A stretch of DNA of 64,000 nt from Tricholomella constricta (lineage: Eukaryota > Basidiomycota > Agaricomycetes > Agaricales > Lyophyllaceae): contig JAACJP010000045.1 in the NCBI GenBank assembly GCA_013368375.1, positions 268,592-332,591 on the forward strand, read 5' to 3'. The notes beneath the pieces are model-generated. The model worked only from the letters and a program-made list of their open reading frames with translations, did not search any database and had not been told where the DNA came from. Each line of letters starts with the position of its first letter. Position 1 is the first letter of the stretch. Shown here piece after piece: positions 23,076 through 54,299 of this stretch. The translations under genes and the position numbers were made by a program.

Positions 23076-23497
23076 TGTAAACCGCCCAAAAGACGCACGC
23101 GACAACATCGACCGACTCACCGACTAACCCGCCGACCAACTCCCGACCGCACGCGACCTACCCGACTCGGCCGACCTAGTTCTAGGGCGCCGGCGATCGG
23201 AGTAACCATGTAGTCACCAAGCGACCATGCACGTTCATCTGTCAAAACGTCAAACCCCTGACTTGGCGCCTTACCCATGACGCATTAACCGACAAAGCCA
23301 CTCCGTCTCCTATTCACGGCACAGATCTGACTAACTCACGGAGTCCCGTAATCGCCGACTGCCCTGATCACGTATCCGATCCGACACTAGTATCCGATCA
23401 ATAACGCGCCACACTCGACTTGTCCTCAGAAAAACGCCGCGCGGCGCCAGACTTGGCGACAACCTAACGCGAAACACCTGCATGGTCGCACTAAGAG
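23076..23497 (+). repeat. left part of presumed 5' LTR of element C
   Basis: From TGTAAACCGCCC at 23076 the base composition becomes rich in CGAC/GACC words, like the C element body at 39-43 kb and unlike the DNA to the left. It is interrupted at 23497 by the KDZ transposon and appears to continue at 38829. The 3' LTR of C is missing, so the left boundary is an inference from the TG start and the composition change. Confidence 0.45.
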
Positions 23498-24895
23498 CAC
23501 ATAGAGGCATCACAGTGTATTGTGTCCCACGGCCCACAGGGCCAATACATGTAGTGTGTTTGACGGAACGAGCGGGCCCGCTGTGGCTCCAGCGGGCCTC
23601 ATACATCGTATCAATGCTCACGGTGCAGCGGGCCTTATACACTGTATCCACTCAGACGGTGTCAGCGGGTCCCGCTGGTCTGCACCAACAGGCCCGATAC
23701 AATGGACACCGCGGCATGCACGATACAGTGTAGCGGATGGCACGGTGCAGCGGGTTTGTACAAGGTATCGGAGAGGACCAGTTCTGCCCCACCGCGGCAT
23801 TGATGATTGTTGCAGGTGTTGAAAGTACGTCGTTCGGCCCCGCGGCATGAGATACAATGTATCGGGTTGCACGGCACCAGCGGGCCTGTTGCAGGTATTG
23901 AAAATACCTCGTTTTGGGTGCCGCGGCGTGAGATACAATGTATCTGACTGCACGGTGGGACGGCCAGCGGGTCCGTTGCAGGTACATCAGTTGGTGCCGC
24001 GGCATGAGATTCAATCTAGCATTGCCGCGGCATGCATAATACAATGTATCGGGCTACACGGTGTAGCGGGTGGTACAATGTATCGGGTTGCACGGCACCA
24101 GCGGGCCTGTTGCAGGTATTGAAAATACCTCGTTTTGGGTGCCGCGGCGTGAGATACAATGTATCGAGCTGCACGGTGTAGCGGGTGGTACAAGGTATCG
24201 TGTGGGACGGGGCCAGCGGGTCCGTTGCATGGCACCAGCGGGCCTGTTGCAGGTATTGAAAATACCTCGTTTTGGGTGCCGCGGCGTGAGATACAATGTA
24301 TCGAGCTGCACGGTGTAGCGGGTGGTACAAGGTATCGTGTGAGACGGGGCCAGCGGGTCCGTGGCAGGTACATCAGTTGGTGCCGCGGCATGAGATTCAA
24401 TCTAGCACTGCCGCGGCATGCATAATACAATGTATCGGGCTGCACGGTGTAGCGGGTGGTACAAGGTATCGTGTGGGACGGGGCCAGCGGGTCCGTTGCA
24501 GGTACATCAGTTGGTGCCGCGGCATGAGATTCAATCTAGCATTGCCGCGGCATGCATAATACAATGTATCGGACTGCACGGTGTAGCGGGTGGTACAAGT
24601 TATCGTGTGGGACGGGGCCAGCGGGTCCGTTGCAGGTACATCAGTTGGTGCCGCGGCATGAGATTCAATCTAGCACTGCCGCGGCATGCATAATACAGTG
24701 TATCGGGCTGCACGGTGTAGCGGGGGTACAAGTTATCGTGTGGGACGGGGCCCGCGGGTCCGTTGCAGGTACATCAGTTGGTGCCGCGGCATGAGATTCA
24801 ATCTAGCCCTGCCGCGGCATGCATAATACAGTGTATTGGGCTGCCCAGTGTAGCGGGTGGTCGTTTGGTGCCGCGGACCGCGGCATGCATGATAC
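23498..24895 (+). repeat. left terminal inverted repeat of KDZ element with 134-bp tandem array
   Basis: An outer ~280-bp unique part is followed by tandem units with a 134-bp period. Each unit carries GCCGCGGCATG palindromes and a GATACAATGTATC dyad. A second unit type with TATTGAAAATACCTCG alternates at the outer side. About 19 CCGCGG sites occur here. Open frames across the array are by-products of the repeat period. Confidence 0.88.
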
Positions 24896-25019
24896 TATTT
24901 ATGTTGGATCTATTGGACTCAAGCCAGAGGGAATACATGTAGCCATCATCATTTTCTTATACACAATAATATGCTTGCAAAAAAAATTGGGATCGGGGGA
25001 CAGGACAACATCATTCTAA

Positions 25020-26681
25020 TCATTCCTCCTCTTCTTCGCTGTCTTCGCTGAATTCCATTTCCATGTCGTCTGCGAGGATTGAATCAGGAATGTGTGCAAA
25101 TGATGATGGCGTGTAAGGGCCATGCGGTACCTGAATACGAGTGGAACCGCTCGCGGTATGCTCCACCGTGTCTGGGATATCACCGTCGTCAAAGGCAAGC
25201 AGCTTGTCAAGGTCCAAATGGGGCAGCCCAGTGCCGGGGCGACGGACATCCTGAACCTCGTCATCACTCAAATCCACTGCAACGACTGCCTCATCATCAG
25301 AGACATCTACAAGGACAATGCCCGTGGAAGGCTCATCATCACTGCTTAGCTCAAGTTGTGGAATGGCTGGACTTTGATCCTCATCGTCGCTAAGCACAAT
25401 CATTGGGAGAGTTTCGTCATCATCAGTCAGCACAATCATGGGGACTGATTCCTCATCATCGCTGAGCAGGATCATAGGAAGGGATGTCGCTTCATCTTCC
25501 TTGTCCTCATCATCTGACAACTCCAACGCAACGATGGAGGATGCCGCGGCGGTCTGCTTTCGTGATGCCGCGGCGTCCAAGTGTGGGGGCGCCACGGCTG
25601 CCTGCTCTGGGGATGCCATGGTGTGTGCTGGGAGAGGAGTTACAATGATAGGAGACCGATCTCTATGGTAGTAGCCGCGGTATGGCTCCACATCGTCAAT
25701 GAAGCTTCGTAGGGGTTGTTGCTCGAAATGGGTGGGTATTTCTGGGCTTTCCAGGCTACGTGGCTGGATGATGTCGGTGCCAATGGCATCAAATCTGTGC
25801 GCACTGGAGGGGGAATGGGTGCCATCAGAAGAGTCCTCCCACTTCAAGGATCCTGAGGCCAGATCACCAAAGTCAGTTCCCAGAGGACCTGAATTGGTCC
25901 CTGGTTCAAAGATGTCCTTGACCTCTTTAGCAGTGAGGTCAGTGGTTTCTGCTGCACCCGCGGTGTTCTCCTTTTGGACCGCGGCCTCATTCATGCTGTG
26001 CAATGCCGCGGCACGGCGCATGATCAAATCCATGCGTGATCCAAAGATGCTGGTATATCCCTGTGTTTGACCCCGAATGTCATTGACGACGCGGCTGGCT
26101 TGATTAGACGGGACCGCCGCGGGAACCCAGGTCTTTGCAGAGTCCGGCTTTAATCCACGATGGGTATCCAAGCATGTGTTGATGGTAAACCGGTTAAAAT
26201 CTTGCCGTGCGTCATCGTCCAAAGGGAAGCTCCACCAGTCACAGGAATAATCGCTGACTGGACCTGTGGGATAATCAATGTTCACCGATGCCTCGAGCTC
26301 CAGCTGCAACTCGGGAGATAGTTGCCATGTGTCCGTGAGATTGTGGGACAACAGGAAAAGGTTGCAGGCTAGGAGGCGAATGAGATCTGGAATCTCGCAT
26401 GGGACCATCATTGCCGCGGCAGCACCAACATATCCCAGCGCAAAATCCTGGGTTGATCACATCAGTCACACAACACGTGATGTGATGTCACAAATACGCA
26501 CAAGCTCTTGAACAATGCGCGGCTGCATCCACTGCTGAACATCCTGTTCCTCTTTCTTGTATATCTCCAGGGCTTTGCGGAAGCGAGATTCACAGTAGAA
26601 GAGGACCTCCTGTATGTGAGCACCATGGACATTGTAAGTGCCCAGGGAGAAATCCATAGAATCTAATGGCTGGAGAGTCAT
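25020..26681 (-). CDS. KDZ-element protein with seven SUMO-interaction-like motifs
   Basis: Two exons: ATG 26681 to about 26511, intron starting GTGCGT and ending CCCAG, then to the stop at 25020; about 520 residues. The N-terminal 130 residues are a plain globular or helical part with Trp-Trp-Ser-Phe-Pro-Leu-Asp. The middle is Ser/Pro-rich. Encoded at about 25255-25530 are seven short hydrophobic-acidic motifs: ALELSDDED, MILLSDDEE, MIVLTDDDE, MIVLSDDED, LELSSDDE, VLVDVSDDE and AVDLSDDE. This pattern (three or four Val/Ile/Leu then Ser/Thr-Asp-Asp-Glu) is that of phospho-regulated SUMO-interaction motifs. The protein ends in a Glu-rich tail. It may tether the transposition machinery to SUMOylated chromatin or repair factors; this is inference. 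The only enzyme-like feature in the element is the transposase. Confidence 0.7.
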
Positions 26682-27135
26682 GAATGTTTTTGTGGAGGAT
26701 TGGGATCAGATAACAAGTTGTGATGAATGTGTGACACTGACAGAAGAGCGTGACAATGATCGGAATTTCAACCGGCCATTCACATTATTTATAGAGTGAG
26801 AGCTGGCATATTTATAGAGTGAGAGCTGGCACCGCGGCCCGCGGTGCGTGAGCTGTAATTCATATCCCTTTCTTAGTGACGATGGTTATGTTGTGTTGTA
26901 TCTAATAATGGGCTAAGCACCATGGTGGCTCGGCCCCATGTGTTACTTTTTGGTGGTGCCGCGGTGCTACTTGAAGCCACCCTGGCCGCGGTGTGACCTT
27001 CAATTGTGACAATGTGCAGGCACACCGCGGTGCCCTGGCTGCAATATGAGTTCCTAGAGATAATGTAGTATGCCGCGGTGTCGCTTCAAATTTCTTGGTC
27101 AAAAACTTGGTCTGTATTCAAATCTTCAAATATTG
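26682..27135 (-). promoter_or_regulatory. promoter region of the SUMO-motif gene with duplicated TATA
   Basis: A 23-bp tandem duplication places two TATAAATA boxes on the minus strand (complements of 26786-26793 and 26809-26816), about 105-135 bp upstream of the ATG. Seven CCGCGG sites crowd 26830-27075. The 27,100 end is the 3' side of the transposase gene. Confidence 0.5.
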
Positions 27136-30100
27136 CTACTGAATGACAAGTGTGAGGTATGCAGTGTTCACCCTTTTAAATTGTTCCTCTGCTGAAGATG
27201 CAAGGCGGTACCACATAGCTGCCTTTCGCTTGGCATAGGCAGCTGCACCGGCTTTACTCGCAGCATCCGCGGCATTGCCGCGGTCTTTCCAAGTTTTCAT
27301 CTGATGAAGGAAATACCGTGTAGTCCAGGTCATTTCATATCCCACTAATATGTACTCCTCATTCCAGCGATGCTTTTGAGCGCGTGCACGTAAGAAATGG
27401 ACCCTTTGATCTATTGGTGAAGAGTGAATTTAGTAACATTGCCGCGGCTAGGTGACGTCCAGTATGACACCTACATTCCAAAAGAGCTTCAGGACTGTCA
27501 GAGGCCTGGCTGCCAGTTTGCCAAATCCAAGACAACCGAAGTGTTGTGGAACCAGGTATGTTAGGATCCAATATGGCTGTGCTAGCCTTGATGTGCTCTC
27601 TGAGTAAGATTTTGTACTTGTCCAATGTAGCTTCATCTGCGTGAAGGCGAACCATAGCAGCTCTGCACTTCCCATATGACTGACAAAGGGTATTGAGAGT
27701 GGTGTTGAGCTTGACGATGGTGACACGGGAGCGTGTACGAACAGCCTTCCGCGGAGCAATACGCATAACATGAGAGTATAGGAATGACTTCTCGGCAATG
27801 CTTTCCCGGAGGTTCGTCAGCAACTTCTCTGCTTGCAGCTTGCGAAATTTCAATTCAAGGCTTGCCAGAGGGGAGATGATTGCAGAATTGTTGACCGAGG
27901 GCAGGAAGAGGGGGGTCCTTTCAGGTTCAATGACTGGGTCATCTGCCTCAGCAGGGTTGGCTCTACCCGCGGCATTGGTTGTGGTTGGGCCACTCCCCAC
28001 GGCTCCTGCTCGGCCACTGCCACCATTTCGTGCCGCGGTATTCATCTCGCCACTCCCGCCATTTGGTGCCGCGGTATTTGGTGCCGCGGTATTCATCTCA
28101 CCTCTTTCCGTTGCACCTGCCGCCCCTTCCCCTTGGTCACCCTGTCCTTCTATCTCATCATCTTCCAGGTAGTCAAACATGTCATCGGGAGGGTCATCTG
28201 GAATGACTGGGGTTGAATGATGATGTCCCGTGCGGGCTTGCAATGCTGTGAAGACGTTAATCTGCGTATGCAGACGTGCTCTTTCAGCCTCCACTGCCTT
28301 GCGGTCCTCTTCCCGCGGCTCCCGCACCAACCTCTTCACTTTATTCTGAAGGCTAGTCCTGGCACATCAGGTCAGAATGATGTTCAACATAAAATGCAAA
28401 AGACTAACTGCTGCTCTTGAAGGTCAATTCCTAGCTGGATCCACTGTTCTTCAAGTGTTAAGCATTCCATGACCTCTGGTGACTCTTCACGGGGTTCGAT
28501 GGCTGTAGTGCGTGCCTTCAGAATGTCCATGGCCTTGGGATCGTTAAGCCTTTCCCTCTCCGCTTCTTCAATCTCTGCAACCCACTCAGCAATCTGCTCA
28601 ACCGGAACTCCATTACACATTTGATCATAATATAGGTCGGCACTTTCCCTGGTTTCAGTAGCTCGACGGAATCTCGAACATAATGCCGCGGCTAGAGAAA
28701 TATTAGGAGTCAACACATGACCGCGGCATACAACACACCGCGGTAAGACCATTATTACTCACACATGTCAAGCAACTTCTTCCAATTTGAATCATTCATG
28801 TGGTCGTCCAGAATTTCTGCCCGATGGGCCAAAGTAGCTGTCCTAGTCATGGGGGAGACGGTGTTAAGGACGGCCCATAAGCTCTCTAGGATTTCTCCAG
28901 CAACAACCGCGGCACCAGGGATGAAAGATGATGCAAAGCGGAAGAAACAGTCAGGCTTGTGGCCATGGACATGCATAAGGCCAATAGCGCGGTCAATTAT
29001 CATTTGAGGGGGAAGGGAGGGTCCGATGCGATCATCAAGGTGGATGATGTACTGGCAAACGATGTCGTAGATAAAAAGAAGCACCTCGATGTCAGTCATA
29101 TTGGTTGTTTTGATTGCCTGTAGAAGAGACCAGTCTACATTCTTTTGTTGCTCGCCAGCATAAAGGTTAGCAAGGCTGTTGGGTGCAAAGCAACCATGAC
29201 GGGCGCATGCAACGGCAACAATCCCCGTCACATCACAAGCCTTGGAAGTCAGCAATGCTTGTTCCAAAACACGAAATTGGTTTTCACATGGGGCTTTCTG
29301 CCGCGGACAAGGTAATCAGTGCCGCGGCGATGCATAACCAAATAGACTTACAGTGAGTTTGTTGAATGCTGTCTTCAAAAACTCATGATAATCCTCCCTC
29401 TTGGCCATCATTCCTCCCCCCTCTGATAACCATACATCAGCCGCGGCGTTTGGCTGGCGAACATGGTCTGCTTTGAAATTTCCATCTGCTACAAAAGACC
29501 GAATGTAGACTTTCCTGTGTTCCAATCTGTTAAAATGCTTAACTTTATGGAAGAAATCAGGTGGAAGTACCTGTTCTGGTCAGATTTCCAGTCAGTGGGT
29601 AGATTGACCTCGGGCTGAGGGCATGGGGGGCAAAAAATTGCAAGATCACCCGCGACAGGGTTCATTGGATCATCTTTCTCATGTCCATAGCCAGCCCACT
29701 TTATTTTCTTCAACCACCTCCAGGAACGAGAAAGCCTCCGCAGTTCACGATAAAAATTATCAATGTCCGCGCTGTTCGTCGCCGCGGCCGTTGCACGACT
29801 AAGTTTTTGCCAATACTGAAAAGCTGATGCTTTACATTCCAGGTTTGCCAATCGATAGTCATCCAAAACGCCAGCTGTGAAGAGTGTTGTGTACCGAGTG
29901 AATGTTGTGGGTATCAAGCGGGCATGCATTAGGTCAATAGTGACCATTGACTGGCCATGGCAAGTGCAGAAGACCAGAGGGATGTAGTGGATTCCGTTGA
30001 TGTGCACAACGCGAACATAGTTATTGTTCAGTCCATCATGCCGCGGCCCAAGGACAGAACTAACATTTCTGTCCGGTGGATCCAAGAATTCCTCGTCCAG

Positions 30101-31260
30101 GTCATCGTCCTCGATGTCCTCTGGTGTCTCTTGAGTGTCACGACCTTCCATGTCATCTTCCAAGTCGTCACCCGTTTTTCGCCCACCTCTGAGGTGAAAT
30201 AACTCATCCAGACGCGCTATATACTCTTCATCAGTGGCTGGGCCGTCATCCGCCAAGTCCGTGTCTTCAAATGCCGCGGAGCCGGAAGCATTCATGTCCA
30301 AATCATATGCCGCTAATCCAGACTCAGCCACTTGTCCTAAGTCCGTGTCTTCAAATGCCGCTGATCCAGAATCGCATGCCGCGGCCGCGGTATCGGGCAC
30401 CGCGGCATCGTTTTCCATAGTGTCAACTTCCATGACACTCTCCGCGGTGTACTGATGGTGTGGCGCAAGGCCTTCTTCCTCTGTGATAGGAGCTTCCGCC
30501 GATGTCCCTGTTGAATGACCTTGCTGTGGCTTAGAGCCCCGCTGGGATATGGTGTTCTGGTCCATGATATCTTTCTGGGTTTGAAAGGTCTCCAGACGGG
30601 TGCGCTGAAACTGAAGTTGGGAGCAGAACTGTTCCCCGGATGAGTGGGGGACGATAATGTACGCCCCAACCTCCCACAGTCATGCTGTACGGAAGTATTG
30701 CCCATTCCAGCACTCAATCTTATGCAGGGGATTGTCTCGGTGATTGATCCGCATACAGTGGCGGCAGAGTATGCGGGGGCTGGTACAGTCCTGACACCGC
30801 CATCGAGCATAATTTTTGTGGGGACAGTCTGGGCAAGGGTGCTTTTCTTGCATAGTCTCTCTAGCCAGTAGACCTTGCAGCATCTCAGGAGCATGGTCAA
30901 CAAACTCCTGTAGGTAGTTGGCTTGTGTCTGTTCACCAATCATTGTCAAAGCAATAATGGAAAGCAACAGTAGTTTACCTTTGTCCGACGAATGGGCACT
31001 GGTATTTCTATGTCATCATTGAAATGACTTCCTCCATTATCAGGATCTACTGGAACTTGGGTTGAGCCAATGGGCACTGGCATGCGTGGAAAGGCACTGG
31101 GAATAGGGATAATTGGCCTTGACTGCAAAGGAACCATTGTTGATTCCACAACATCACCTCGAGCAGTAGTCCGTATGGATGTATGAACATCCAGGCCACC
31201 CTGCACCCGATCAGTCTGTCTAAGGATGGGATCCTTTTTGGTGCGTTTGCGCTTGAGCAT
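27136..31260 (-). CDS. KDZ transposase, seven exons, one in-frame TGA
   Basis: Exons 31260-30979, 30928-29571, 29526-29352, 29297-28763, 28691-28409, 28358-27471 and 27403-27136 join in phase to 1263 codons; all introns are GT..AG and 37-76 bp. The N-terminal cysteine cluster (CPDC, WRCQDC, CRHC, PLHKIECWNG) is the CxC2-like zinc domain fused to KDZ transposases. The core follows in family order: Asn-Leu-Glu-Cys-Lys, Phe-Val-Ala-Asp-Gly-Asn-Phe, Cys-Ala-Arg-His-Gly-Cys, Ile-Tyr-Asp-Ile-Val-Cys-Gln-Tyr, Met-His-Val-His-Gly-His, Ser-Phe-Ile-Pro-Gly-Ala, Gly-Glu-Ile-Leu-Glu-Ser-Leu-Trp and Asp-Asp-His-Met-Asn-Asp. A TGA at 30680-30682 interrupts exon 2 right after the zinc cluster, where Trp is expected. 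Everything else is open, so the gene is either freshly dead or read through. Confidence 0.9.
30680..30682 (-). other. in-frame TGA in KDZ transposase
   Basis: The codon after Tyr-Phe-Arg-Thr-Ala is TGA, followed without a frame change by Leu-Trp-Glu-Val-Gly and 1000 further clean codons. A TGG-to-TGA change is the simplest cause. No GT..AG pair removes it in phase. Confidence 0.75.
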
Positions 31261-31635
31261 GGTAAGGAAAGAGGGTTGACAGAGAAAGCCTGGTGATGGT
31301 TGATAATCTTCACAATGATCTTGAATCACCCCATGTCATCTCCTCATGGCATTGAACCTCCTCATGGCATTGAACCTCCTCATGGCATTGAACCTCCTCA
31401 TGGCATTGAACCTCCTCATGGCATTGAACTCTGTACACATGACCTCCCTGCAGACACATGTACTGCCTTGCTTGCTACACATGTCCTGTCGGACCCCGGC
31501 CAGATGTTAATCAAAGCGATGGATTTGTTTGCGCAGTGTCAGCTGGCCGCGGATCAAATTTCTAACTTGACCCGAGAACCAACCTCATGTTTGTTGTCCC
31601 ATTTTGGTCATTCCTTTCCACTACACTCTCACATG
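31261..31635. promoter_or_regulatory. divergent promoter with five 18-bp repeats
   Basis: The interval separates the starts of the transposase (minus) and the 31636 gene (plus). At about 31342-31430 the 18-bp unit CATGGCATTGAACCTCCT is repeated five times in register. Its place between two divergent genes suggests a control role, but it is also open as Pro-His-Gly-Ile-Glu repeats, so an upstream coding exon cannot be excluded. Confidence 0.4.
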
Positions 31636-33979
31636 TCAGCCAACGAAGCCGAGGCACCAAAGACCATCAGAAAACAAAGTGCCTATTCAAGAGAGGAGCG
31701 TGATGTCCTTAACAAGTACAAGGACGAGTACCGGGGAGAGCCAGATGCAGCCAAGAGAGCCAAGATTTTTACATCCAAGGTGCTTGTTGACATTTTCAAC
31801 TACTGGAGCTTGCAAAAGAAGGATCCCCAAACGGACGAAGCTTCACAAAAAGCAGTAAAGGTACACTATGCACCATTCAACCCATAATCATTTGCTAAAC
31901 TGCCCACAGCAACTTGCCAATTGGGTGAAGAACAACTGGAGGGTGTACCCGGACTTCAAGAAATCTATGGGGGAATTGAACATCACCCTCCGACATGTGG
32001 TCATGCGCACTAAGCGCGACGCAATCCATGATGAACTGGAGCACATACTGGGTGTGGACGACCTTGACCCAGCATGCCCCGAGGCATTTCAGCAGCGGAA
32101 CAAGGCCATTTCCAATGTCATCAAAAACCTGGCCCCTGATGAACGCCAAGCATTGGAAACGACAGCTCAGGAGTGGAGTAGAAAGGGATATCCACAGGAG
32201 GAAAGGCCAAAGTAAGTGTCACCGCGGCGGGCGGCGCACGCCGCGGCTATCGTTATGAGGCTAACACTTGCCCTGCCCACAGAATTGCAGATAAACATGG
32301 CTTCACACGGGTGGAAGATGTGGACAAACGGCGGTGGCGGGAAATGGGAATGGTTTCCCTTACATTTGTTGCATGGACCAACAGTGAAGGGCACCTTTGT
32401 GTGCGCGCGTAAGTAATTTTTCACATTGCATAACTGTCCGCGGCCTGACGTTCCGCGGCGTAGTCACGACAAAATTGCTCACAACATGGGCGCCGTGTAT
32501 AAGAAGTTTACAGAAACCTTTCCTACCTTGATTCAAGACTGCAAAGTCAAGCTTATGGATTATGTGGTTGCTGTACAGCAGTCACTTGACCCCATCCCCC
32601 TAAACCCTCTCGAGGCCGCGCAGCCCAACATCCAAGTGAAGATACATGAGGACGGTTTTCCGATCTTACCATCTCCGGATGACACTCCAAAAACTCACAA
32701 CGATCTTGAAATGATCGTACGTTACTATCTGAATTACCATTACAGTATGTTGTTGTCCATTGCTGTGTTGACTCTCTGACATACTCCTTTAGTGCTTGCC
32801 TCTGGCCGTACAAAAAACTCGACACCATTCAAGGCTGTGGAGGCAGAGTGCGCCAAATTTATTGCCGCGGAATATCTTCCCGCGGGACAGAGAATTTGTG
32901 ATCCACGCAACATTCGATTCAAGGAATTAGAATCGCTCCTTGACTTTTGGTACCAGCGCCAGGAGGAACATGGTCATTCTTCTGCATTCCGGTGGTCCTC
33001 TTACCTGAACACCAAGAAGGAGAGGGTTGCAGCAGTATATGGAGAACGAAAGGATTTGGAGGCCGCGGCAGAACGAAAACAGGCAATCAGGAAGAAGAAG
33101 AGGAAAGATAAACAAAGGATGCATATTGACCCTTTGTTGGAAGGGTTGACATCTATGCCCCCGTTGCCAGCCAGCGAAAACACCGGAGCGGACCGCGGCA
33201 GTCCAGGCCGCGGCGAAATGGAACCAGGGGAGACTGCAGTCAGTCCCAGATCACAGCAACCTAACACCAGCCCAAACACCGGAGCGGACCGCGGCAGTCA
33301 AGGCCGCGGCGAAATTGAAACAGCCACACAATTCAATACCAGATCACAGCCACCTAACACTGAGGCAGCCAGCCCAAATATCGGTGCGGACCGCGGCAGT
33401 CGAGGCCGCGGCGAAATGTCACCAGATGAGGATATGACTGTTGGGGTAGACCAAGGCATGTCTGGGCACCACAACCAGGAGGCTAATTTCAATGCAGCAC
33501 ACAAGGACACTCCTCAAGTCCAAAGTGTACTTGTAGACGATGATACCATGCGCAAGCTCATGGCCCGTGGCTTTGCAGGACAATACCCAATCAATGGCCC
33601 TGCAGACGGACCACCAAAGTACCGCGTGCCTGAGACTGCACTAGAGCTATTGAAGCAGGATAATCCCACCACACCCATAAATGAACCTTCAGCATCAAGG
33701 TCTCCAACCCCTCAACTATCCAGCACTACACCGGCATCACAAAAGCGAAAGCGCGATGAAGCTCATACGATGGGAACTAAGAAGTCAAGGAGCACTCAGA
33801 GGCTGTTAGATGAGGCGCAGCAGATTCTAGAGGGGTCCAGTAGGAGATCGACAAGGCAGCAGGATGCCATGGCAGTTACATCAAGGGCAGCAACACGGTC
33901 CGCGGCAGCGCGGGCCGCGGCACCCAAGCCCGCGGTAACAAGGTCCACAAAAGTCAAAGCAGATAAACGTAGACGTTAG
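31636..33979 (+). CDS. KDZ-element accessory protein with GADRGS repeats, five exons
   Basis: Exons 31636-31860, 31910-32211, 32283-32408, 32464-32744 and 32793-33979 join in phase to 707 codons with GT..AG introns. The start is the ATG opening Met-Ser-Ala-Asn-Glu-Ala. No known family was recognised. The N-terminal third is charged and helical (Trp-Val-Lys-Asn-Asn-Trp). A central part has Arg-Trp-Arg-Glu-Met-Gly and His-Asp-Lys-Ile-Ala-His. Near 33170-33420 three imperfect copies of a motif NTGADRGSxGRGE occur, each encoded by a pair of CCGCGG sites. The C-terminus is Lys/Arg-rich with a Lys-Arg-Lys-Arg nuclear-signal-like run and ends Lys-Arg-Arg-Arg. A chromatin or DNA-binding partner of the transposase is possible but not shown. 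Confidence 0.75.
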
Positions 33980-34371
33980 AGGGAAGCTAGTCAAATATCT
34001 ACACATAATAGTATGCATGCTTATCAACCAGTCTGTTATGATTTAGAAATGTATCTGTGGTGATGGGCAGCAATGCTTGTGCCGCGGCATCATTGATGTG
34101 CCGCAGCATTATAGCATTGCGGCACCTTCAATGACATTGGCACACGTCATTCACACTTCATTTGTTCAACACTTGAGTGCAAGAAAAATTTTTGATTATC
34201 TACAGCTGTAACTAGTATATGTACAGTGTAGCTCTGGATGTTAGCTTTTTGTTATCTACAATTGTCTGAGGTATATATCTACAATTGTCTGAGGTATATA
34301 GAATAGCTATTGTATACAATCAAGAAAGCAGGTGTCAAAAAACAATGTAAAAAAGGGCGTCCGCGGAGTGT
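33980..34371. other. convergent intergenic region with 24-bp duplication
   Basis: Lies between the ends of two convergent genes. The 24-bp unit ATCTACAATTGTCTGAGGTA (first 20 bases) occurs twice head to tail at about 34254-34300. Two CCGCGG sites are present. Confidence 0.5.
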
Positions 34372-36729
34372 TCAATTGAGGCGCGGTTTTTTCGCCGCGG
34401 CCTCATCCAAATCGTCATCTGCCTTCCGCTTTTCACCATCTGTGCTGATGGGAGCCTTGCTACGCGTCCGGTGAAGTGGCTCACCATCTTGATCCATAGG
34501 TGCCGGTGTGCGGCTACGTGACCGTGAGCGACGAGTTGTAGCGGTTGGAGGGGGAGCTAGGTGTTCAGTCTCCGGGGTTGGCGAAGTCACTTGGAGGGTA
34601 GGCGGCAAAGGTGGGGGAGGGCTGTCCGGCACATGTGGAAAGGGCGAGGGGGATGGCGACGGTGGTGGTGGTGATGGTGATGGTGGTGGTGGTGGTGGTG
34701 GTGGTGGTGGCAGGGTGGTGGTTGGTTGGGGCGGGGACACCGGTGCTGGGAAGTCAGCCGCGGCATGCATGTCCGCGGTGTCCATGTCCATGGGGCTCGC
34801 CGCGGCGTGAAGGTCGTCAGACTCCTCAGTACCAAGAGGCTGCTCACCACCTTCTGCGCCGTCTCCCGCCGCGGCATCGACGTTGTTGGGGGGGAAGCTA
34901 CTGCCGCGGCATCAACGTTGGGGGAAGACTCACCCTCCGTCTCACTTGCCTCCTGCATCACCACCCTCTTTCTAAACACCCGGCACTCCATAGAGTCCAC
35001 TCGGTCTGTCAGGACCGCAATGGATGCTGACATCCGGCGGACCGCCTCTGTCAACACTCCAACCCGTCGAGACATCTTCCCGAGAGCCTCAGAGTGACCC
35101 TCCCTCCCTTGCTCCAGCTGCTCAATCTTGGCCTCCTGGGCAGTGACCTCAGAACGGAGGTTTGTGGTGTCCTCATCCATGGCGTCGGCAAAGTCTTCCA
35201 GCTCACGCACTGTCCCCTTGATTGACCTGATGGTGGAAGACATTTCATCATCGTTTACTGCGGCATGAGGGGTCAGGGCCACCGCGGTGACGGGAGGAAT
35301 AGGGGCCGCGGTGGGGGGAGCGGTGGGAGCGCCAGGAGTGGGGGCCGCGGCCTTGTGAGATGCACCTCTATCTTTCCCTACTCTTAATTAGCTTTGAAAC
35401 TGAAATACAAATTTTACACTTACTTGGTTTGCTGGGCCCAGCCACCGGGACCTCATCACCCACCACTCTTGAAGTCCCAGCTGACTTCTTCCTCAAGGGG
35501 CCATATGTGCAGTGCCTCTTCTTGTCACGGCAAGCTTGACATGCCGTGGCTGAGGATGCTTGCTTCCTGCATTCTTGATTGAAGCGAACGCAGGCACTGC
35601 AGGGCGGGTGGTAGAGTGTTGGGTTGTAGGGGGCGGGGGCTGTTCTCTGGGCACCAGCAGGGTCTGCATCTGAGTCAACTTCCATGTAAGTTGTCTCCCC
35701 ACCGCTTTCTGCTCCCAGTGCGGTGAAGGTGGCCGCGGTCGATGAGTGGATGGGCTCCCCCACTGTGATGGTCGTCTTGTGGGGGGTGTGGGGGGGTGCG
35801 GGTGCCTTTTGCTTACCCTTGTCCTTCTTGGTGGCCTTGGGTTTGGGAGCGCGGGCCTTTGCCACCGCGGCCGCGGCCTCCTCCTCTCTCTTCCGCACCG
35901 CAGCCTCCTCCTCTCTCTTCCGCACCGCAGCCTCCTCCTCTCTCTTCCGCACCGCGGCCTCCTCCTCTCTCTTCCGCACCGCGGCCTCCTCCTCTCTTTT
36001 CCTCGCCTCCCCTCTTTTCCTCGCCTCCTCCCTTTTGCGCGCCGCGGCCTCCTCCACTTCTTTCTGTGCCGCCGCGGCCTCTTCTCTCTTCCGTGCCTCC
36101 AGTTCCCTCTTTGCCTTCTTGCTCGCCCTCTTCTCTTCCTGCTCCCTCACCCTCTTCTCTTCCTCCTCCCTCACCCTCCTCTCTTCCCGCTCCCTCACCG
36201 CAGCCTCCTTCATTCGTGCCGCGGCCTCCGCCTTGGTCTTTCTTGCCGCGGCCGCGTCCTTTTCTGCTTCGGCCTTCCTTTTTGCCACCTTCTTTGCGAC
36301 AATGTCATCAGCGACAAGGCTTGCCGCGGTCCCCGCCTGGACCTTTGATGACCCCTCACCCCTGTCCTCCTTCTCCTCCACCACGGTGACCCGCTTCTTG
36401 AACTCCGCAGCCTGCGTCCGGTACGCGGCGAGGTGCTCAGCAAACTTCTCGGTCTCACGAGAGACCTTTTGAAGCAGCTTGAGCGTGAGCCCAAAGAACG
36501 AGCTGTTGAATAGCTTGATTGTTTGGGGGTCTCGGATGCCGGAGACGCGTATGTAGAAGTCCTTCTGCTCAAATATTCAATAATTGGAAAAGAAAAAAAA
36601 AATTAAAAAGCGATGCTTACCGAGTCCTTGTAGATGGCGACGAACTCATCGCGCATCCCAGCCTTTACGGCCTTGAGGAGCCTCCGGTCAGTCGCAGCGA
36701 GGGTGGTTTGAACGGCGGAAGAATCCATC
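34372..36729 (-). CDS. KDZ-element protein: cysteine cluster, long charged coiled coil, Pro-rich tail
   Basis: Exons 36729-36621, 36564-35424 and 35377-34372. After Phe-Tyr-Ile-Arg-Val-Ser-Gly-Ile-Arg-Asp-Pro comes about 190 residues of Ala/Glu/Arg/Lys helix. It includes five tandem RKREEEAAV-type repeats encoded by CCGCGG- and CCGCAG-bearing units. Next is a fungal cysteine cluster (CSACVRFNQEC...CQACRDKKRHC), which resembles a zinc-binuclear-like domain of Agaricomycete proteins, then a second coiled coil and a Pro-rich tail ending in a basic run. A run of seven G at 34888-34894 shifts the frame before the tail, so this copy is either broken or misread at a homopolymer. It was not recognised as a named family; DNA or chromatin binding is an inference from the cluster. 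Confidence 0.65.
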
Positions 36730-36918
36730 AAAGTTAATGTAAGGTGATCGGGTGGAAGAGGGTGCGCGGTGCGGGGGAAGTTGTGGTTGGGAAGAGAGAG
36801 AGGCGGTGAAATTTTTTTCAACATCAGTCACATGACCTTATCTCATCAATCCATCGATCAAACAAATTCACATAAAGTGCTTGGTCTCGGTCTTCAAAAT
36901 CAATCAACTCCCCCCATT

Positions 36919-37579
36919 ATGAACAACGAAGCCTCTGAAGGACACCGCGGTGAGAACCCCCGCGGTGCCAATTCCTCCCGTGTTGTGCAGTCCAGCACCG
37001 CGGCACCTCCCACTGGCTATTCTGTCATTGCCACTGAAAACGGGGACTATCTGGTGCCAAAGTTCCTCGTTCCTGTGACCGAACGTGCACTCATGGTCCA
37101 GCCAATGGACTCAACCTTTCCTGCTGGGGTGAGCCCAATTGAAAGCTTTTCTTTCTGCACACCACTCTGAATAATGCATTTTAGCCCTTGCCACACACAG
37201 AGGGCAAGTGCCATTTCCTAGCCCATGGAAATATCATGATACCTCCAGATCCAGTGGGTTTCAAATGATATGGGTTGAATACATACTAATATAGTTACAG
37301 CCCTTGACTGGCCGTGAGGCCTTGCAACTTCACGTAGAGGTCCTGGCATACCAACAGCAATATGGCGGAACATATGCCGCGGCATCGCGCCAGCTTTATT
37401 TGGCAGAAGTTGCAAAGCTTGAAAGTGTGGCCGCGGCACACAATGCCTTCAGTAATCTGCGTTCTCAAATCGATGGTCCACAGTCAGGTAACATGATAGA
37501 CAAAAAGGGAAAGGGAAAGGACAGAGAAAAGGACGAGAGGCCAAAACCCAAAGCTAAGAAGGGAAAGAGGGCAAAATAG
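36919..37579 (+). CDS. small KDZ-element protein, three exons, basic tail
   Basis: Exons 36919-37128, 37203-37253 and 37301-37579 give 179 residues in phase. The middle reads Tyr-Leu-Val-Pro-Lys-Phe-Leu-Val-Pro, then a helical part with Tyr-Ala-Ala-Ala-Ser-Arg-Gln-Leu-Tyr, and a Lys-rich tail ending Lys-Gly-Lys-Arg-Ala-Lys. The middle junctions are the least certain part. No family was recognised. It starts divergently from the coiled-coil gene at 36729, 190 bp away, and ends just before the right inverted repeat. Confidence 0.6.
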
Positions 37580-37689
37580 TTTACACTTGACAATTGAAGC
37601 ACATTTATCACAAGTCTTGCCACTATGTCCTTTTGAAACACCGCGGTATTACACGAAACAGAAAGTAGGTTGTTGACAAGTGAATATTG

Positions 37690-38821
37690 ATACCATGATG
37701 CCTTGTACACAACCGCTACACCGTGCAGCTCGATACATTGTGTGATGCATGCCGCGGCACTAAATGTGTTTGCCGCGGCAGTGGTACATTGTATTATGCA
37801 TGCCGCGGCACCAGAAGATGTACCTGCAACGGACCCGCTGGCCCCGTCCCACACGATACGTTGTACCACCCGCTACACCGTGCTGCCCGATACACTGTAT
37901 TATGCATGCCGCGGCAGTGCTAGATTGAATCTCATGCCGCGGCACCAACTGATGTACCTGTAACGGACCCGCTGGCCCCGTCCCACACGATACCTTGTAC
38001 CACCCGCTACACCGTGCTGCCCGATACACTGTATTATGCATGCCGCAGCAGTGCTAGATTGAATCTCATGCCGCGGCACCAACTGATGTACCTGTAACGG
38101 ACCCGCTGGCCCCGTCCCACACGATACCTTGTACCACCCGCTACACCGTGCTGCCCGATACACTGTATTATGCATGCCGCGGCAGTGCTAGATTGAATCT
38201 CATGCCGCGGCACCAACTGATGTACCTGTAACGGACCCGCTGGCCCCGTCCCACACGATACCTTGTACACACCCGCTACACCGTGCTGCCCGATACATTG
38301 TGTTATGCATGCCGCGGCACCAATTATGAATGCCGCGGCGTGGCAGCCACGGCGTGCCGTCCTGCCAAAACTTTCTCGCGGCACCAACTGATGTACCTGT
38401 AACGGACCCGCTGGCCCCGTCCCACACGATACCTTGTACACACCCGCTACACCGTGCTGCCCGATACATTGTGTTATGCATGCCGCGGCACCAATTATGA
38501 ATGCCGCGGCGTGGCAGCCACGGCGTGCCGTCCTGCCAAAACTTTCTGACCTTCCTTGTACAAACCCGCTGCACCGTGCAATCCGCTACACTGTATCGTG
38601 CATGCCGCGGTGTGCATCGTATCAGGCCTGTCAGCACAGACCAGCGGGACCCGCTGACACCGTCTGAGTGGATACATTGTATAAGGCCCGCTGCGCCGTG
38701 AGCATTGATACGATGTATGAGGCCCGCTGGAGACACAGCGGGCCCGCTCGTTCCGTCAAACACACTACATGTATTGGCCCTGTGGGCCGTGACATACAAT
38801 ACACTGTGATGCCCCTACCTG
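37690..38821 (-). repeat. right terminal inverted repeat of KDZ element
   Basis: Reverse complement of the left array: the same 134-bp units (for example near 37900 and 38034) and the same outer ~280 bp. A ~175-bp segment containing CCAAAACTTTCT is duplicated (38306-38385 region and 38480-38548 region) and is absent from the left repeat. Thirteen or so CCGCGG sites occur. It ends ...CTACCTG at 38821, followed by CTAAGAG. Confidence 0.87.
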
Positions 38822-38828
38822 CTAAGAG

Positions 38829-39247
38829 TCGGTGATCTGGCTTTACCATATAAACAATCCCATGTAGTACCTACCGTTCTCCAGTGAATTATAGCCCGTA
38901 TTTTCCCTCACGTTCAGAGTTAATAGCTCAAAAACCATCGTCTTCGCCGTCTCCGCACCGTCCTCATCGTATAAACCCGTCACAAACCGCTGTGACCGTC
39001 GCCACTGTAGTAAATCTCGTAAACCGCGGTATCTGTTCGCCCGTAACCGCCGCCCGAACCCGTGAGTTCTCCGTTTTAGCATCGTTCGTCTCGTTGTCGC
39101 GTCACCGACATCAACAGTCGCGTCGCCGACCCGTTCCAGCCGGGAACTATCGCATACGGTCGCGCTCGTCGCATCGTCGTCGGTTCGACTAATATCGAGT
39201 CGGGTCGTCTTTACCTTCGTCCAGACCATCCTTTTAGCCCTACACAC
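38829..39247 (+). repeat. right part of presumed 5' LTR of element C
   Basis: Continues element C composition after the KDZ insertion, with a TATAAA at about 38850. The suggested end is ...CCCTACACA near 39247, followed by CTGGCGTG, a possible TGG-type primer site. Together with 23076-23497 it would make an LTR of about 840 bp. Boundaries are inferred, since no second LTR is present. Confidence 0.4.
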
Positions 39248-39740
39248 TGGCGTGTTTGGGAACTTTTAACACTTCTCGCCCCCTATAGTTGTTAGTTGTT
39301 TTGTTGTTGCGTACAGCACCCACAGGCCTTCTAGCGCTATCATTCTGGAGCCCACCGCGAGGGATTTAAAAACCACCGCCGAACACGCAACCTTCTTACA
39401 CTTCTTCGTAAAAACCTACGACGCGGCGACCATTCCGCCGGAAACTCGATAAGAGACGAGAGCCCGAACCCTTCGTGCCGAAATCCGCGCTGTCTTCGGA
39501 GAGGCCGACACCGACTCAGAATCCCTCTCCCCGCTCTTTCACTCAGTAACCCCACATCGCGCGATCCACAACAACCTCAGTCCCCTGTTCTATAGCCCTT
39601 TATCAGATCTACCATCGCCTATCCCGACCGACCGAACCCCGTCTCGTGAACCGACCGCCCGAACCAACTCAGACTCCGACCCCTTTGCGTCGGAACTCCC
39701 TACTACCGATCAAGGAGTAGAATTTAGACTCACTCCCCTA

Positions 39741-48000: not shown

Positions 48001-49063
48001 GCGAGCGCACTTCATCGCGTCGCACACGACCTGTTCGGCCTTGGGAGCTGCGAATCTCTACCGTCGCCACGTCTGGAAGCTGCACGGTCTCCCCGACGCA
48101 TTCGTCTCCGATCGAGGTCCACAGTTTGTTGCCGAGTTCACGCGCGAACTGTACCGGCTCCTGGGTATCAAGCTGTCGGCCTCGACGGCGTACCACCCGC
48201 AGACCGACGGGCAGACTGAGCGCGTCAACCAGGAGCTGGAACAATTCCTGCGGGTCTTCTGCAACGAGCGCCAGAACGACTGGGAGGACCTGTTGCCCGA
48301 CGCCGAATTCAGTTACAACAACCATGTACACTCGGCGACGCAACAGACCCCCTTCCTGCTCGACACTGGTCGGCATCCACGCATGGGCTTTGAGCCGCGT
48401 CAGGGCGCTTCCAAGAACGAGTCAGCCGAAGAGTTCGTGGAGCGCATGAAGGAAGCCCAGGAGGAAGCTAAGGCAGCGCTTGCAAAGGCAAAGGACGACA
48501 TGGAGCGGTATTACAACCAGCGACACGCCCCAGCGCCTGACTACCAGCCGGGTGACAAGGTGTACTTGGACGCGGCCGACATTTCTACGACCCGACCATC
48601 TAAGAAGTTGTCGCATCGCTACCTCGGCCCTTTCGTCGTGCAAAGGCGAGTCGGCCCGCTCGCATATCGCCTTCTGTTGCCTCAGTCCATGAAGCGCATC
48701 CATCCGGTCTTCCACGTCGTAAAGCTTGTCCCCGCTGTCGCGGACCCCATCGAAGGTCGGCAGTCTGATCCACCGCCGCCCCCAGATATCATCAACGACG
48801 AGCCCCACTACGAAGTCCACAAAATCCTCGACAGCCGCATCTTTCGCAAGAAACTCCAGTACAAGATCTTGTGGAAAGGCTACGGCTACGAAGAAGCTTC
48901 GTGGGAGCCCCGGGAGAATGTCGTCGCCCCCGACCTGGTGCGCAAATTCCACCGCGACAATCCCGATGCTGCGCGCCACATCCGTGGCATCTTCACTCTG
49001 TCCCCCGCCGTCTTCGCCACCGTCACCCCGCACCGAGCCGTTGCGATTCAAGAGGGGGGGTGA
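45024..49063 (+). CDS. element D Pol polyprotein: protease, RT, RNase H, integrase, chromodomain
   Basis: About 1345 codons with no stop. Domain order and motifs are as in B: retropepsin Asp-Ser-Gly-Ala-Thr-Gly, RT Tyr-Leu-Asp-Asp-Ile-Leu, RNase H Thr-Asp-His-Lys-Asn, integrase His-His-Cys-Cys finger and Asp/Asp/Glu core, chromodomain Trp-Lys-Gly-Tyr-Gly-Tyr...Trp-Glu-Pro. The integrase segment reads Val-Val-Asp-Ser-Val, where B has Tyr. The first conventional codon in frame is the GTG at 45038, so frameshift expression from gag is likely. The stop overlaps the polypurine run AGAGGGGGGGTGA before the 3' LTR. It could be functional. Confidence 0.93.
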
Positions 49064-49533
49064 TGTTAGGGGAACTCCCTTTCGCGCCCTCCGACGCTCA
49101 CCGATCGTCCCCCCGCTCATGCGATCGCTCCCCCGACCGTTCCCGATCCCGACCCCCGACGCTCCGACCCAAGCGTCGGTGTATATACTTACACACTTCC
49201 TGTCGTTCCCATCTCTCCCTGCGCGCGCCCGACGCTGATCCCGACCACCCGACATCCCGACGTCGGCTGTCCCAACTCGTGCCCGTACCCTGAGCCACGA
49301 GGATCGGGACAGCGTCGGGAACGTGTCCATACACGCGCCGCAGACCATTCCTTGATTATTATGTACAGTACTCGTATATAGTCGGCCCACTGGCATTGGG
49401 GATCCTTAGTCTATTCTCTTCGGATTCCCCTCTGCCAGGTAAGCCCCTCTTTACATTCCTCACTGTACTTAATATAACTTCGGATTCCCCTCTGCCAGTA
49501 CGACTCAGCTCTGCTCGTGAGGTCGCCCTAACA
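49064..49533 (+). repeat. 3' LTR of element D
   Basis: 470-bp LTR. Its outer edge cuts into a TET/JBP-like gene without the duplication expected from the left side. Confidence 0.92.
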
Positions 49534-50500: not shown

Positions 50501-50551
50501 GCCTGGCTGCCCGAGCACTAGAGGACCAAAGTCGTCAGCAAGGAATGCCAC

Positions 50552-50869
50552 AAAGTGGACAAGCAGTCGCTCCTAGCCCGCCCTTCTGCAGCGCGTTTGT
50601 CGTCTTGGTCCCAGGTATGATCCCAAAAGCCGCCAAGTGCGCTGCAGAAGCGTGGGCTGGGAGCGGTCGCTCAGGAGGAGATGCCACATACCTGGTAGAA
50701 TAAAACAAACAAGTCGAACTGCGAAGGAGTACAGAGAGAACCACGGATTCCGGACTTGTCATTGTTGAATGAAATCGGCGTGGTCATGTGATTGCATCTC
50801 AACTCATTGTTTGATGTCGTTCCGAAAGCGCTGAGGTGCATCCCAGAGCCTGCAACTGTATAGGCAGGG
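50552..50869. promoter_or_regulatory. divergent interval between TET/JBP-like and KDZ genes
   Basis: About 320 bp between the starts of two divergent genes, presumably holding both promoters. No TATA box or repeat stands out. The first exon of the KDZ gene probably begins here but its ATG could not be fixed (ATG at 50813 leads to a stop). Confidence 0.35.
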
Positions 50870-53800
50870 GGTGGCCAAGGCCTCCAGATCTACCGGCAAG
50901 CTCCTCAACCCCAAGGCCCTTAACCAATTTCGCCAGCAGACAGAAGCAGAATTGCGGGACCGGCTTCATGGTACGTGGGCCTGCTCAGCCATCAGCACCC
51001 AGCAGCAACTGACGTCTCCTCAGCCATGGATGAGCGCGACAGGAAGGTGATGGACTCAATCCGCGATATGCCCGAGTACACATCGATGGACGAGCCTGGC
51101 AGCCCAGGGATCAACGTAGACGACGTTTTGGATGGCAGCATCCCTGTGGAGTTTAGCCATGCAGGTGGCGAATTTCAAGAGCTGCTGGAGGAAGATTTGA
51201 GGCCAAAAAGGTGAGGCAAGTGTGCTGCAATGAGCGGAACAACTCTAACCCTTTCACGCAGCACCAGACGCGTGGATGCTCGATCGCGTCGCAACAGGAC
51301 GCTCCTCCGGAACCAGGGGTTTGAGGGCCAACTAGGCGGGATGGTTGATGCCTATCTGGACTGGAGTGAGGCCTTGGGCGTGTCTGGCAAGGCTGTGGCG
51401 GCGCCCCTTCCCGACGATGCCGTAGTCCAGTCCACTTACTCCGTGCAAGTCTTCGATGTCTTTGGTGAGTTTTGTCGGCAGTAATGAGTGCTCCAGTTTC
51501 GCTGAATAGGGTGTCTCAGAAGCATACCAGGAAAATGTACCTCTTCTCGCAGGAAGTCCAGGCGTCGCGGCGTCGCTCGTGCTACAAGGCCTCCTGCCCT
51601 CTGCGCCATACGCGCCTTCCGTCACATTCACCACCCGAGTCGTTGAACTTTACCGGACAGACCACTTGAGGTGCCCTCACCTTGCCATTCAACCCTTTGT
51701 CAAGGGGCTTTGTGACCTTCACGGCGTACACGCACTGCTTTCTTCCATGCAGCTTCACTGACAACTTTGCAGGTCCCCTTCCGCCCATACCTTTGCAAGC
51801 AATTCTCCATTGCTTATGACCAATACCTTGCCATCCGAGCCGCCGTTGACACCAAAGTTCAGGCTGCACTGGAGCGCGACGCGCCAGGCTGGCAGCTGCG
51901 ACACGCCTGCCCTGCTTGTACGTACAAGCTGAAGGGTGAGGATCAACTAATCTTTCAGATGCTCATTACGTTGGACGGAAACGACTCCCTCAAGCGTGTC
52001 CTGCGTCGAGGCCCCGAGACAGTTGATGAAAATGGAGAGATCGAGCCCGGGGCGTCGAAGGAGTTGAAAGATGACCGTGAAATTGGCGGGGATTACTACA
52101 TCAGCAGGGACCGGGTAGATAAGTGGGCTAAAGGAGTGCTAGCGGAGTTGCTTCCGGCAGGAGAGGAAACGGTAAGCTCCCCGGTATTGCAACCCGCCCT
52201 ACGCTGCTAATTTGTGAAGGGCGACGAGGCCGAGCCCAATCCATGCACTGACCGGTGGAAAGACATGGCTAACGAGCTCACTGCTCGAATGTGGGGAATT
52301 TTTGACGAGACCGGGGCCTTCCTCGCCCTGTGCCGGCATGGGTTTGTGCTCATCGTGGTTGACATGGTAAAAAGTGGAGAGCTGTACGCATTTTCTCCTC
52401 TCATGCCTACTATCGTGCTAAACTATACCCCCAGGGCAAAATATCCACTGGCAGTGGTTGAGACGCTCCTCAAAGCATTTGGCGCCCGCCTGGGCGGTGG
52501 CTATGACATCGGCTGCAAGTTTGGGACCACGCTTGATCGCAGCCCTCTCAGGCCCGAGGCGCGCGAGCTTCTCTACAAATCGCTGGTGGGCAGCTTCCAC
52601 GGCCACGCTCACAACCGCCTCTGCCAGCTATCGTTTCTTGCGAAGTACGTCAAGGGCATGGGCCTCGAGGACCTGGAGGGTTGCGAGCGTTTCTTTTCCA
52701 AGTCCAACGCGTTGGCCTCGTCTGTTCGCTACGCGAGCGTTTTCCACAGGAAGCAAAGGATTGTCAAATTCGCTAAACACATGGACAAGATGGACACGTA
52801 CCAAAATCTCAGTGAGTTTTGCGCATTGATTCTTTCTTTTGAGTCTCAGCGGTGCGCCTAGGCGAATTCCTCGCCAACAACTATAGGCAGGCCATCGATC
52901 TCATCAATGGCCAGGCAGCATTGGAGAAGCAAATGGCCGACCAGAAGGTGGCGTCGACGGAGGTGTTTGAGCAATGGTTGAAGGAGGAAGGCGAGTACTT
53001 GCGGGGGCTTTCGAAGGAGCCCATTCAAGAGACATTGCAGATGGAATATTACCAGAAGCTCGTCAACCTCGAGGCAAGCCGGTGAGTGCCACCTTCGTGC
53101 ATATTTGCCGCAGTGCTGATGGCCTGCAACTCAGGAAGAAGCTGGATGCTGCATCGGCAGCGTGGACCATCGATACCCCCGAAACACACGGCGGTCGCGA
53201 CTTCACTGCCTCCAAGGAAACTGCGCGCCGTCATGCCCTCGAAAACCTTGACAAGGACCTGGCCGTCGTCCAGGGCTTGGAGATGAAGCTGGGCGTAAAG
53301 GAGCGGTGGACGTCGTCGAGTCCTGAGTGGGGCGAGGCGGCTGCAATGACTGGGAAGCGCCGCTATCAACGCTGCCTTGACACGCTCGAGGCGCTTATCG
53401 TTTCCAGGATGTTCGAATTGACCAAGATGAACATGTCTCAGACCGGTGAGCGCCAATCAGCTTCATTACTGCCGCGCTAACATACCTGGCAGGCTACAAG
53501 CTACGGAAGCACATAGGTAACGCACTGAAAGCACGATCTCAAGCGGTTCGTACAGCCCTCGAGAGGTACAACGCCGCGGCTCAGGCCCTCTCCCCGCCTC
53601 GCCCAGAGCTCTCCTGGGACGTGGTAGTCGAGTACGCATTTCTTGCGGATTTCGACCTCCTAGCCGACACCCGAGACGACGTACGCGAACGCCCCTGGGC
53701 AGCTCCTGCTGCCCGCATCCTCATGGACGAGTATTTCAAAATCCAGCGAGCTCACGAAGAAATCCAGCGCCTCAATATCGAAATCGCACGCCTCGTAACG

Positions 53801-54112: not shown

Positions 54113-54147
<35 letters not shown>

Positions 54148-54205: not shown

Positions 54206-54299
54206 ACTTATGCCAAAATGCCACCCAATTTTAAATTCTATTTACTGCGATTTTTTTAAGGTTTTACAAAGATTTTTGAGGTAGCTGGGGAGCTCGTCG

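Follow-up and report, generated by a model that had tools for sequence, protein, structure and literature searches.

Dense CCGCGG words and a candidate zinc-cluster reader in a clade of KDZ transposons of Tricholomella constricta

Accessory proteins of large DNA transposons can bind many copies of a short motif, as TnpA of En/Spm does at subterminal sites of an element whose genes are not saturated with the motif. The sites of yeast Pdr1 and Pdr3 are promoter elements. The VANC21 motifs of Arabidopsis VANDAL transposons are family-specific, lie mainly in non-coding DNA and are bound by an element-encoded protein that removes methylation (PMC5735166). Kyakuja transposons of Agaricomycotina are characterized, in Kojima's account (PMC12730594), by a KDZ transposase with CxC2, CA..TG ends and 7-bp target-site duplications. 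The usual targets of fungal zinc clusters are CGG repeats in direct or everted arrangement, and the site of yeast Pdr1 is TCCGCGGA (PMC8211738). Here we describe a stretch of 64,000 nucleotides from Tricholomella constricta (assembly GCA_013368375.1, contig JAACJP010000045.1, positions 268,592 to 332,591 of the forward strand; hereafter the window), which contains a large KDZ element filled with the palindrome CCGCGG ("the word"). The excess of this word is genuine, strong and common to a clade of elements. The best explanation, to which roughly even confidence is assigned, is that CCGCGG may serve as a dispersed self-recognition word of this one KDZ clade, read by a zinc-cluster protein of the element. 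The coordinates of all features are collected in Table 1.

The element (23498-38821) contains 113 copies of CCGCGG, all of them inside 23700-38620, while the rest of the window has 14 (nine in 1-23699 and five in 38621-64000). A preliminary description of the window had reported saturation over 23700..38620; the count bears this out, and the range was right to about 200 bp. The resulting density of 7.4 per kb compares with a genome mean of 0.276 per kb (12,158 copies in 44.09 Mb). CCGCGG is the most frequent 6-mer of the element, the second palindrome being GCATGC with 22 copies, and its 18 one-mismatch neighbours occur 1-15 times each. The word had been said to be mostly GCCGCGGC, which applies to only half of the copies (56 of 113), and 25 of those are TGCCGCGGCA. 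By region, the terminal arrays hold 32 words (12.6 per kb), ten main open reading frames (ORFs) 58 (6.8 per kb) and the remainder 23 (5.3 per kb). As 12 of the latter are inside smaller, possibly coding ORFs, the proposed spread irrespective of coding state is borne out, although few words, perhaps just 11, come from non-coding DNA of the interior. Even spacing was looked for within the element and was not seen, the words being clustered (coefficient of variation 1.23 versus 0.98 for random placement).

Shuffled sequences were used to gauge the excess. Shuffles of the element that kept 2-base counts yielded 3.3 copies (n = 200, standard deviation 1.9, maximum 9) and those that kept 3-base counts 7.5 (n = 200, standard deviation 3.0, maximum 19). 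Synonymous codon shuffling of the ten ORFs gave 8.6 copies (standard deviation 2.7, maximum 18) in place of the observed 58, and each of the ten ORFs lay above its own shuffle mean. When protein, codon counts and dinucleotides were kept jointly, 26.9 copies were obtained (maximum 34); this procedure has scant freedom to move codons, so that much of the original sequence stays put and about half of the words are retained. In principle the word could have accumulated without any selection acting on it, as a side effect of composition, runs of alanine, codon bias or tandem duplication. Such an origin would fit the 42 of 58 ORF words that stand in the frame xCC GCG Gxx, with alanine at the centre, the words located within tandem repeats and the share retained by the joint shuffle. 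It is nevertheless considered highly improbable, as no shuffle reached the observed counts, 32 words lie in the terminal arrays and a further 11 outside the ORFs considered, and the nested inserts described below hold no words. The shuffles of the window element, its ORFs and the related C3 family speak against an explanation from composition, codon usage and alanine runs alone. There is good support for the earlier proposal that the DNA word itself is under selection. Shuffles that preserve dinucleotides and codons, separately or jointly, fall short of the count.

A related element on contig C3, whose KDZ domain is 79% identical and whose other matched reading frames are mostly less similar, is saturated as well. 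Without an insert, its composite sequence carries 65 copies in 10.1 kb, compared with 2.5 and 7.2 in shuffles. Blocks that can be aligned between the two elements at 62-69% contain 8 words in the window and 10 in C3, of which only 3 are at shared positions; word positions therefore turn over while the density persists. The long terminal repeat (LTR) retroelement nested in the C3 element has no CCGCGG in 6.2 kb. Similarly, none is found in the whole kilobases filled by two foreign stretches inside a further copy of the window family (C33), whose blocks are 90-97% identical to the window. The word thus belongs to the element and not to the region, and regional mutation or chromatin was rejected as the cause of saturation, given that nested inserts and flanks are without it. 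In other KDZ families, 30 loci (L021-L050) contain 0-3 words per 3.4-3.8 kb (0-0.8 per kb), and the second KDZ region of the window (48001-57000) has one. A saturating word of their own was sought in 14 loci of other KDZ families (3.4-3.8 kb each) and no 6-mer of comparable excess was present. The preliminary description had looked to related elements for the word, and the outcome is divided: the nearest family has it, and KDZ families of this genome that are less closely related do not.

The word is also better conserved than other CpG-containing sequence. Between the window and C33 copies, 48 words are common to both, of 62 and 58, respectively, and 117 of 138 word CpGs were kept versus 258 of 402 other CpGs (Fisher p = 3e-6; the block at window 30358-30800, which overlaps another block, was dropped from the CpG comparison). 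The same pair of copies was inspected for local protection of CpGs near words and none was seen, with 0.61-0.69 kept in all five distance classes. A CpG-methylation platform, as had been suggested, is possible; CpGs next to words are lost as quickly as those farther away. The word might be read by a host protein or by a chromatin mark that depends on CpG, in which case the element would use or mimic a host signal and its zinc-cluster gene would be incidental. The two CpGs of each word amount to 226 of the element's 811 CpGs, and DNA-methylase and TET/JBP matches exist in the genome. Reading by the host is nonetheless judged improbable, because the bases flanking the word are family-specific, the 30 other KDZ loci of the same genome hold 0-0.8 per kb, and although many CpG-rich words could fill this role, those nearly identical to CCGCGG do not share its enrichment.

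In CCGCGG, two CGG triplets stand in everted order with nothing between them, which is the type of site bound by fungal zinc clusters. A six-frame scan for the double C-x2-C pattern returned a single match in the 64-kb window (Table 1) and a single match in the C3 composite, CVRCTMRNLAC-x9-CFPCKFAKQSC. Both are spaced C2C6C-x9-C2C6C and are located near the C-terminus of coiled-coil-like ORFs, which are 29% identical with all six cysteines aligned. This arrangement fits the Zn2Cys6 reference spacing C-x2-C-x6-C-x(5-12)-C-x2-C-x6-8-C. Alignment to GAL4 pairs the halves of the cluster in exchanged order, although the E of 2.8 is not significant, and the basic loop RDKKRH is in the second half of the cluster and not at the expected first-half position. 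In the comparison of window and C33, the zinc-cluster ORF showed pN 0.021 and pS 0.077 (19 and 21 changes). Relatives of the protein were not detected in the protein database at the sensitivity used. CxC2 was set aside as a discriminating reader because it accompanies KDZ families both with and without the word. The idea that an element protein binds the dispersed site is kept as the best reading, with the likely reader not being the CxC2 cysteine cluster that had been put forward.

Sequence variation was also seen at the gene of the candidate reader. The zinc cluster of the C70 copy (C70:40769-40981) is 89% identical to that of the window although the ends of this copy are 99.8-100% identical, and the zinc-cluster domain of C33 is identical to the window's despite about 5% surrounding divergence. 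These patterns make exchange of the reader gene between copies possible. Another reversed C2C6C..C2C6C cluster, CDRCVSYGLDC...CAVCEIQSRRC, is found at L068, in a foreign stretch of C33 that is without the word, and this type of cluster may not be limited to KDZ elements.

The bases on either side of the word differ between families. Flanks in the window family are R..Y in 90 of 113 words and Y..R in 4, and in the C3 family Y..R in 39 of 65 and R..Y in 3. Subfamilies v and iii follow C3 (Y..R in 21 of 35 and 21 of 46). For the base after CGG, window and C3 differ with a chi-square p of 2e-33, and neither v nor iii differs from C3 in this respect. The zinc cluster of the window family has RDKKRH as its second loop; in the other four subfamilies read, this loop is KFAKQS, RLAKQS, KYAKQS or KHAKQS, the last of these sequences ending before the final cysteine. 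Such a parallel between flanks and loop is the pattern that would be expected if the protein reads the word. A suggestive preference for a 15-bp spacing was additionally noted in the window element, where the interior has 11 word pairs at a distance of precisely 15 bp. Their surroundings mostly differ, but three of the pairs are copies of a single repeat. Jittering the words by multiples of three gave on average 2.0 pairs at 15 bp, and in 5000 runs none reached 11 at any distance from 6 to 60.

The association of zinc cluster and word extends across the genome, where searches with the two clusters returned 35 and 37 matches. There are 92 CxC2 matches, 31 of which end at profile position 104, a grouping chosen after the list was inspected. 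A zinc cluster is present within 30 kb of 29 of these 31 (within 10 kb of 23), versus 3 of the 61 others within 30 kb; TET/JBP matches within 10 kb accompany 1 of the 31 and 13 of the 61. Places of word clustering were defined by three words within about 80 bases, which gave 123 clusters in all. Merging by hand of those listed on C1-C14 left 36 places, which represent about nine elements; a zinc-cluster match lies within 20 kb of 34 of these places and a KDZ match within 20 kb of 33. None of the 23 Tet_JBP matches in the genome comes as close as 10 kb to any of the five KDZ places in the window family. A strict dichotomy between TET/JBP and zinc cluster was rejected: among 113 KDZ places, merged by hand from the matches listed of 157, 14 and 24 have the respective match within 10 kb, one has both and most have neither. 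The exceptions comprise C51:142753, a KDZ place with both types of match nearby, and two C9 KDZ places that resemble the clade and have no zinc-cluster match.

Under the best explanation, CCGCGG acts in cis and selection retains it at any position, even at a cost to codon and amino-acid choice. The zinc-cluster protein, as the most likely reader, would probably dimerize through its coiled coil and bind the everted CCG-CGG pair, and many sites across 15 kb would allow it to locate and coat members of its own family almost exclusively. The most probable benefit would be that the element stays expressed and unsilenced, and assembly of the ends for transposition is nearly as likely. The word might instead be a site for the transposase or an accessory protein in transposition itself (end recognition, end pairing or compaction of the 15-kb element), with interior copies being overflow or an aid to compaction and the zinc-cluster protein possibly being that accessory. 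The terminal arrays are the densest part of the element, and paired-word arrays exist elsewhere. The pattern TCCGCGGAC-N(0-30)-CCGCGG has 255 genome matches; among the 100 listed, 65 have a 17-base form, 11 of which lie within 10 kb of a CxC2 match and none within 15 kb of a zinc-cluster match. Several arrays read plus on the left and minus on the right, 3-15 kb apart, and these probably represent the terminal arrays of another element family, perhaps a non-autonomous one. The arrays suggest that the word first served at the ends, in connection with transposition, and that the zinc-cluster clade added saturation of the interior. However, 81 of the 113 words are outside the terminal arrays, and end recognition needs no sites in every gene; a role confined to transposition is regarded as a serious but rather unlikely alternative. 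Examples of the arrays are C1:985111-988740, C5:970002-973216, C7:94442-97407 and C8:50399-53944, among others, with the word form TCCGCGGAC-N-TCCGCGG where letters are shown.

Coverage by the reader could alternatively act as target immunity or an identity tag that blocks the element's own transposase from inserting into members of the family. Genes and spacers are both covered, and the inserts met in saturated elements are an LTR retroelement, untyped stretches and a KDZ place of another family (C7:678189, which lies between parts of a subfamily-vi element and appears to be nested there). Few inserts were seen, and the words are clustered rather than evenly spaced. Immunity is considered quite improbable.

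Several observations weigh against recognition of the word by the zinc-cluster protein. CpGs near words are not spared, which speaks against local demethylation. The Pfam Zn_clus score of the window fragment is just below the cut-off of 21 (20.8 bits); the C3 homologue reaches 16.9 bits and the whole ORF 10.1 bits (E 0.94). Folding of the cluster from its single sequence gave a model of low quality (pLDDT 57), whose two PDB matches (E 5.5 and 9.5) are not zinc clusters. The parallel between flanks and loop amounts to a single contrast. In subfamily vi the flanks are mixed (Y..R in 8 of 20, R..Y in 2 of 20), yet its loop is like that of the other non-window subfamilies. A 15-bp pair preference was not seen in the C3 family. 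For subfamily vii, on C11, there is no triple word cluster within 15 kb of its zinc cluster and one pair among the pairs listed, and the 17-base arrays show the converse, words far from any zinc cluster. Outside the window family, the saturated clade was sampled at loci chosen for their word clusters, so that the density of these loci is biased. Finally, reader and word share a clade, and co-inheritance could explain their association. The joint shuffle, being less extreme, and the arrays, which favour the transposition alternative slightly more, leave confidence in recognition by the zinc-cluster protein at even.

Compared with the VANDAL system (PMC5735166), the likeness lies in a short motif that is dense in one element family and rare elsewhere, in related families that differ in the motif variant (C-type and T-type there, R..Y and Y..R here), in many sites within tandem repeats and in an element-encoded sequence-specific DNA-binding protein, demonstrated there and putative here. 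VANC21 motifs, however, have one orientation and are mainly non-coding, whereas CCGCGG is a palindrome with 58 of 113 copies in ten ORFs; the preliminary comparison with VANDAL therefore applies in kind and not in detail (PMC5735166). The candidate reader has no known relationship to VANC, and the host here is a fungus and the transposase a KDZ protein. No VANC-type domain was among the Pfam matches of nine element ORFs, a result obtained with no direct VANC profile comparison. With yeast Pdr1/Pdr3 the system shares the zinc cluster and the core CCGCGG of TCCGCGGA, and the YCCGCGGR form of the C3 family includes the exact pleiotropic drug response element (PDRE) (PMC8211738, PMC2536678). It differs in having more than 100 dispersed sites and a cluster whose halves are reversed and C-terminal. 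No earlier report of such word saturation was found in the literature searched.

More tentatively, and with somewhat less than even confidence, the clade may write its own address: the word, maintained in coding and non-coding DNA alike at about 6-7 per kb, would co-evolve with a reversed-half Zn2Cys6 protein, loop and flanks changing together, possibly as an alternative to the TET/JBP of other KDZ families in this genome. If this is true, a eukaryotic DNA transposon bends protein-coding sequence to keep a DNA-binding word, and selection of such strength on non-protein information is rarely visible. It would also mean that VANC-like self-marking exists outside plants by way of a DNA-binding fold that is common in fungi, and the two families, whose flanks and loops have diverged, would form a natural pair in which to test recognition directly. 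An over-represented palindrome together with a zinc-cluster gene would provide a simple computational signature for other self-marking elements.

Table 1. Positions of the element, its parts and a control gene in the window
Feature	Position	Strand	Remarks
Left target-site duplication	23491..23497		CTAAGAG, 7 bp; copy comparison
Whole KDZ element, Kyakuja-type	23498..38821		15,324 bp, CACATAG...CTACCTG; copy comparison
Left terminal inverted repeat	23498..23765	+	94% complementary to right arm
Left subterminal tandem array	23866..24861	+	unit about 134-137 bp, with CCGCGG
Acidic 478-aa ORF	25020..26456	-	SUMO-interaction-like repeats; 8 words
ORF downstream of KDZ domain	27359..28366	-	partly kept in C3 family (53-62% aa); 7 words
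KDZ transposase domain	28755..29315	-	PF18758, E 4.3e-36, 125 bits
CxC2 cysteine cluster	29489..30679	-	PF18803, E 9.6e-18
Longest word-free stretch	30448..31546		covers region between divergent transposase and plus-strand ORFs
Plus-strand ORFs	31297..33979	+	kept in C3 family (36-49% aa)
Three-copy repeat built round paired words	33168-33430		within plus-strand ORF region
402-aa ORF, candidate word reader	35368..36576	-	coiled coil (read from sequence) and C-terminal Zn2Cys6-like cluster
Cluster CSACVRFNQEC-x9-CQACRDKKRHC	35509..35601	-	sole window match to double-cluster pattern (six frames)
Example CCGCGG-N9-CCGCGG pair	36945..36965		outside ten main ORFs, inside smaller ORF 36748-37167
Right subterminal tandem array	37694..38547	-	
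Right terminal inverted repeat	38554..38821	-	
Right target-site duplication	38822..38828		CTAAGAG, 7 bp
In-window control: KDZ domain	51953..52786	+	another family

The element is a Kyakuja-type KDZ transposon, as it combines a KDZ domain, CxC2, CA..TG ends and 7-bp duplications. These ends and duplications were present in all four copies with both ends readable, and the duplicated sequence differs in each: CTAAGAG (window), CGCGATC (C72), AAATACA (C70) and GGGTCGC (C11). Because the end pieces of the other duplication-bearing copies have 97-100% aligned identity to the window, the family probably moved recently. Its inverted repeats of about 270 nt differ from two Laccaria families described without any (PMC12730594), and such absence may not define the class. 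A further difference from Kyakuja as described there is the zinc-cluster gene and saturating word of the window family, which is without a match to TET/JBP, an optional gene of the group, within 10 kb of its five KDZ places. The transposase has 695 protein relatives, and those named by organism among the 120 listed are from mushrooms; no relative was confirmed in phage records or viral contigs.

Some minor observations concern the remainder of the window. The second KDZ gene (51953-52786, plus strand), which belongs to a family without the word, scores 229 bits and shares the top score of the genome with C18. CpG is very low beside the word-free stretch, at 0.39 in 31001-32000. The right side of the element adjoins an ORF for gag/protease of an LTR retroelement (39453-42119, plus strand), and one word is present in 39001-42000. 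The acidic ORF at 25020-26456 (minus strand) contains the hydrophobic-acidic motifs MILLSDDEE, MIVLTDDDE, MIVLSDDED and LVDVSDDE, which we take to resemble SUMO-interaction motifs (SIMs), so that it possibly encodes a multi-SIM transposon protein.

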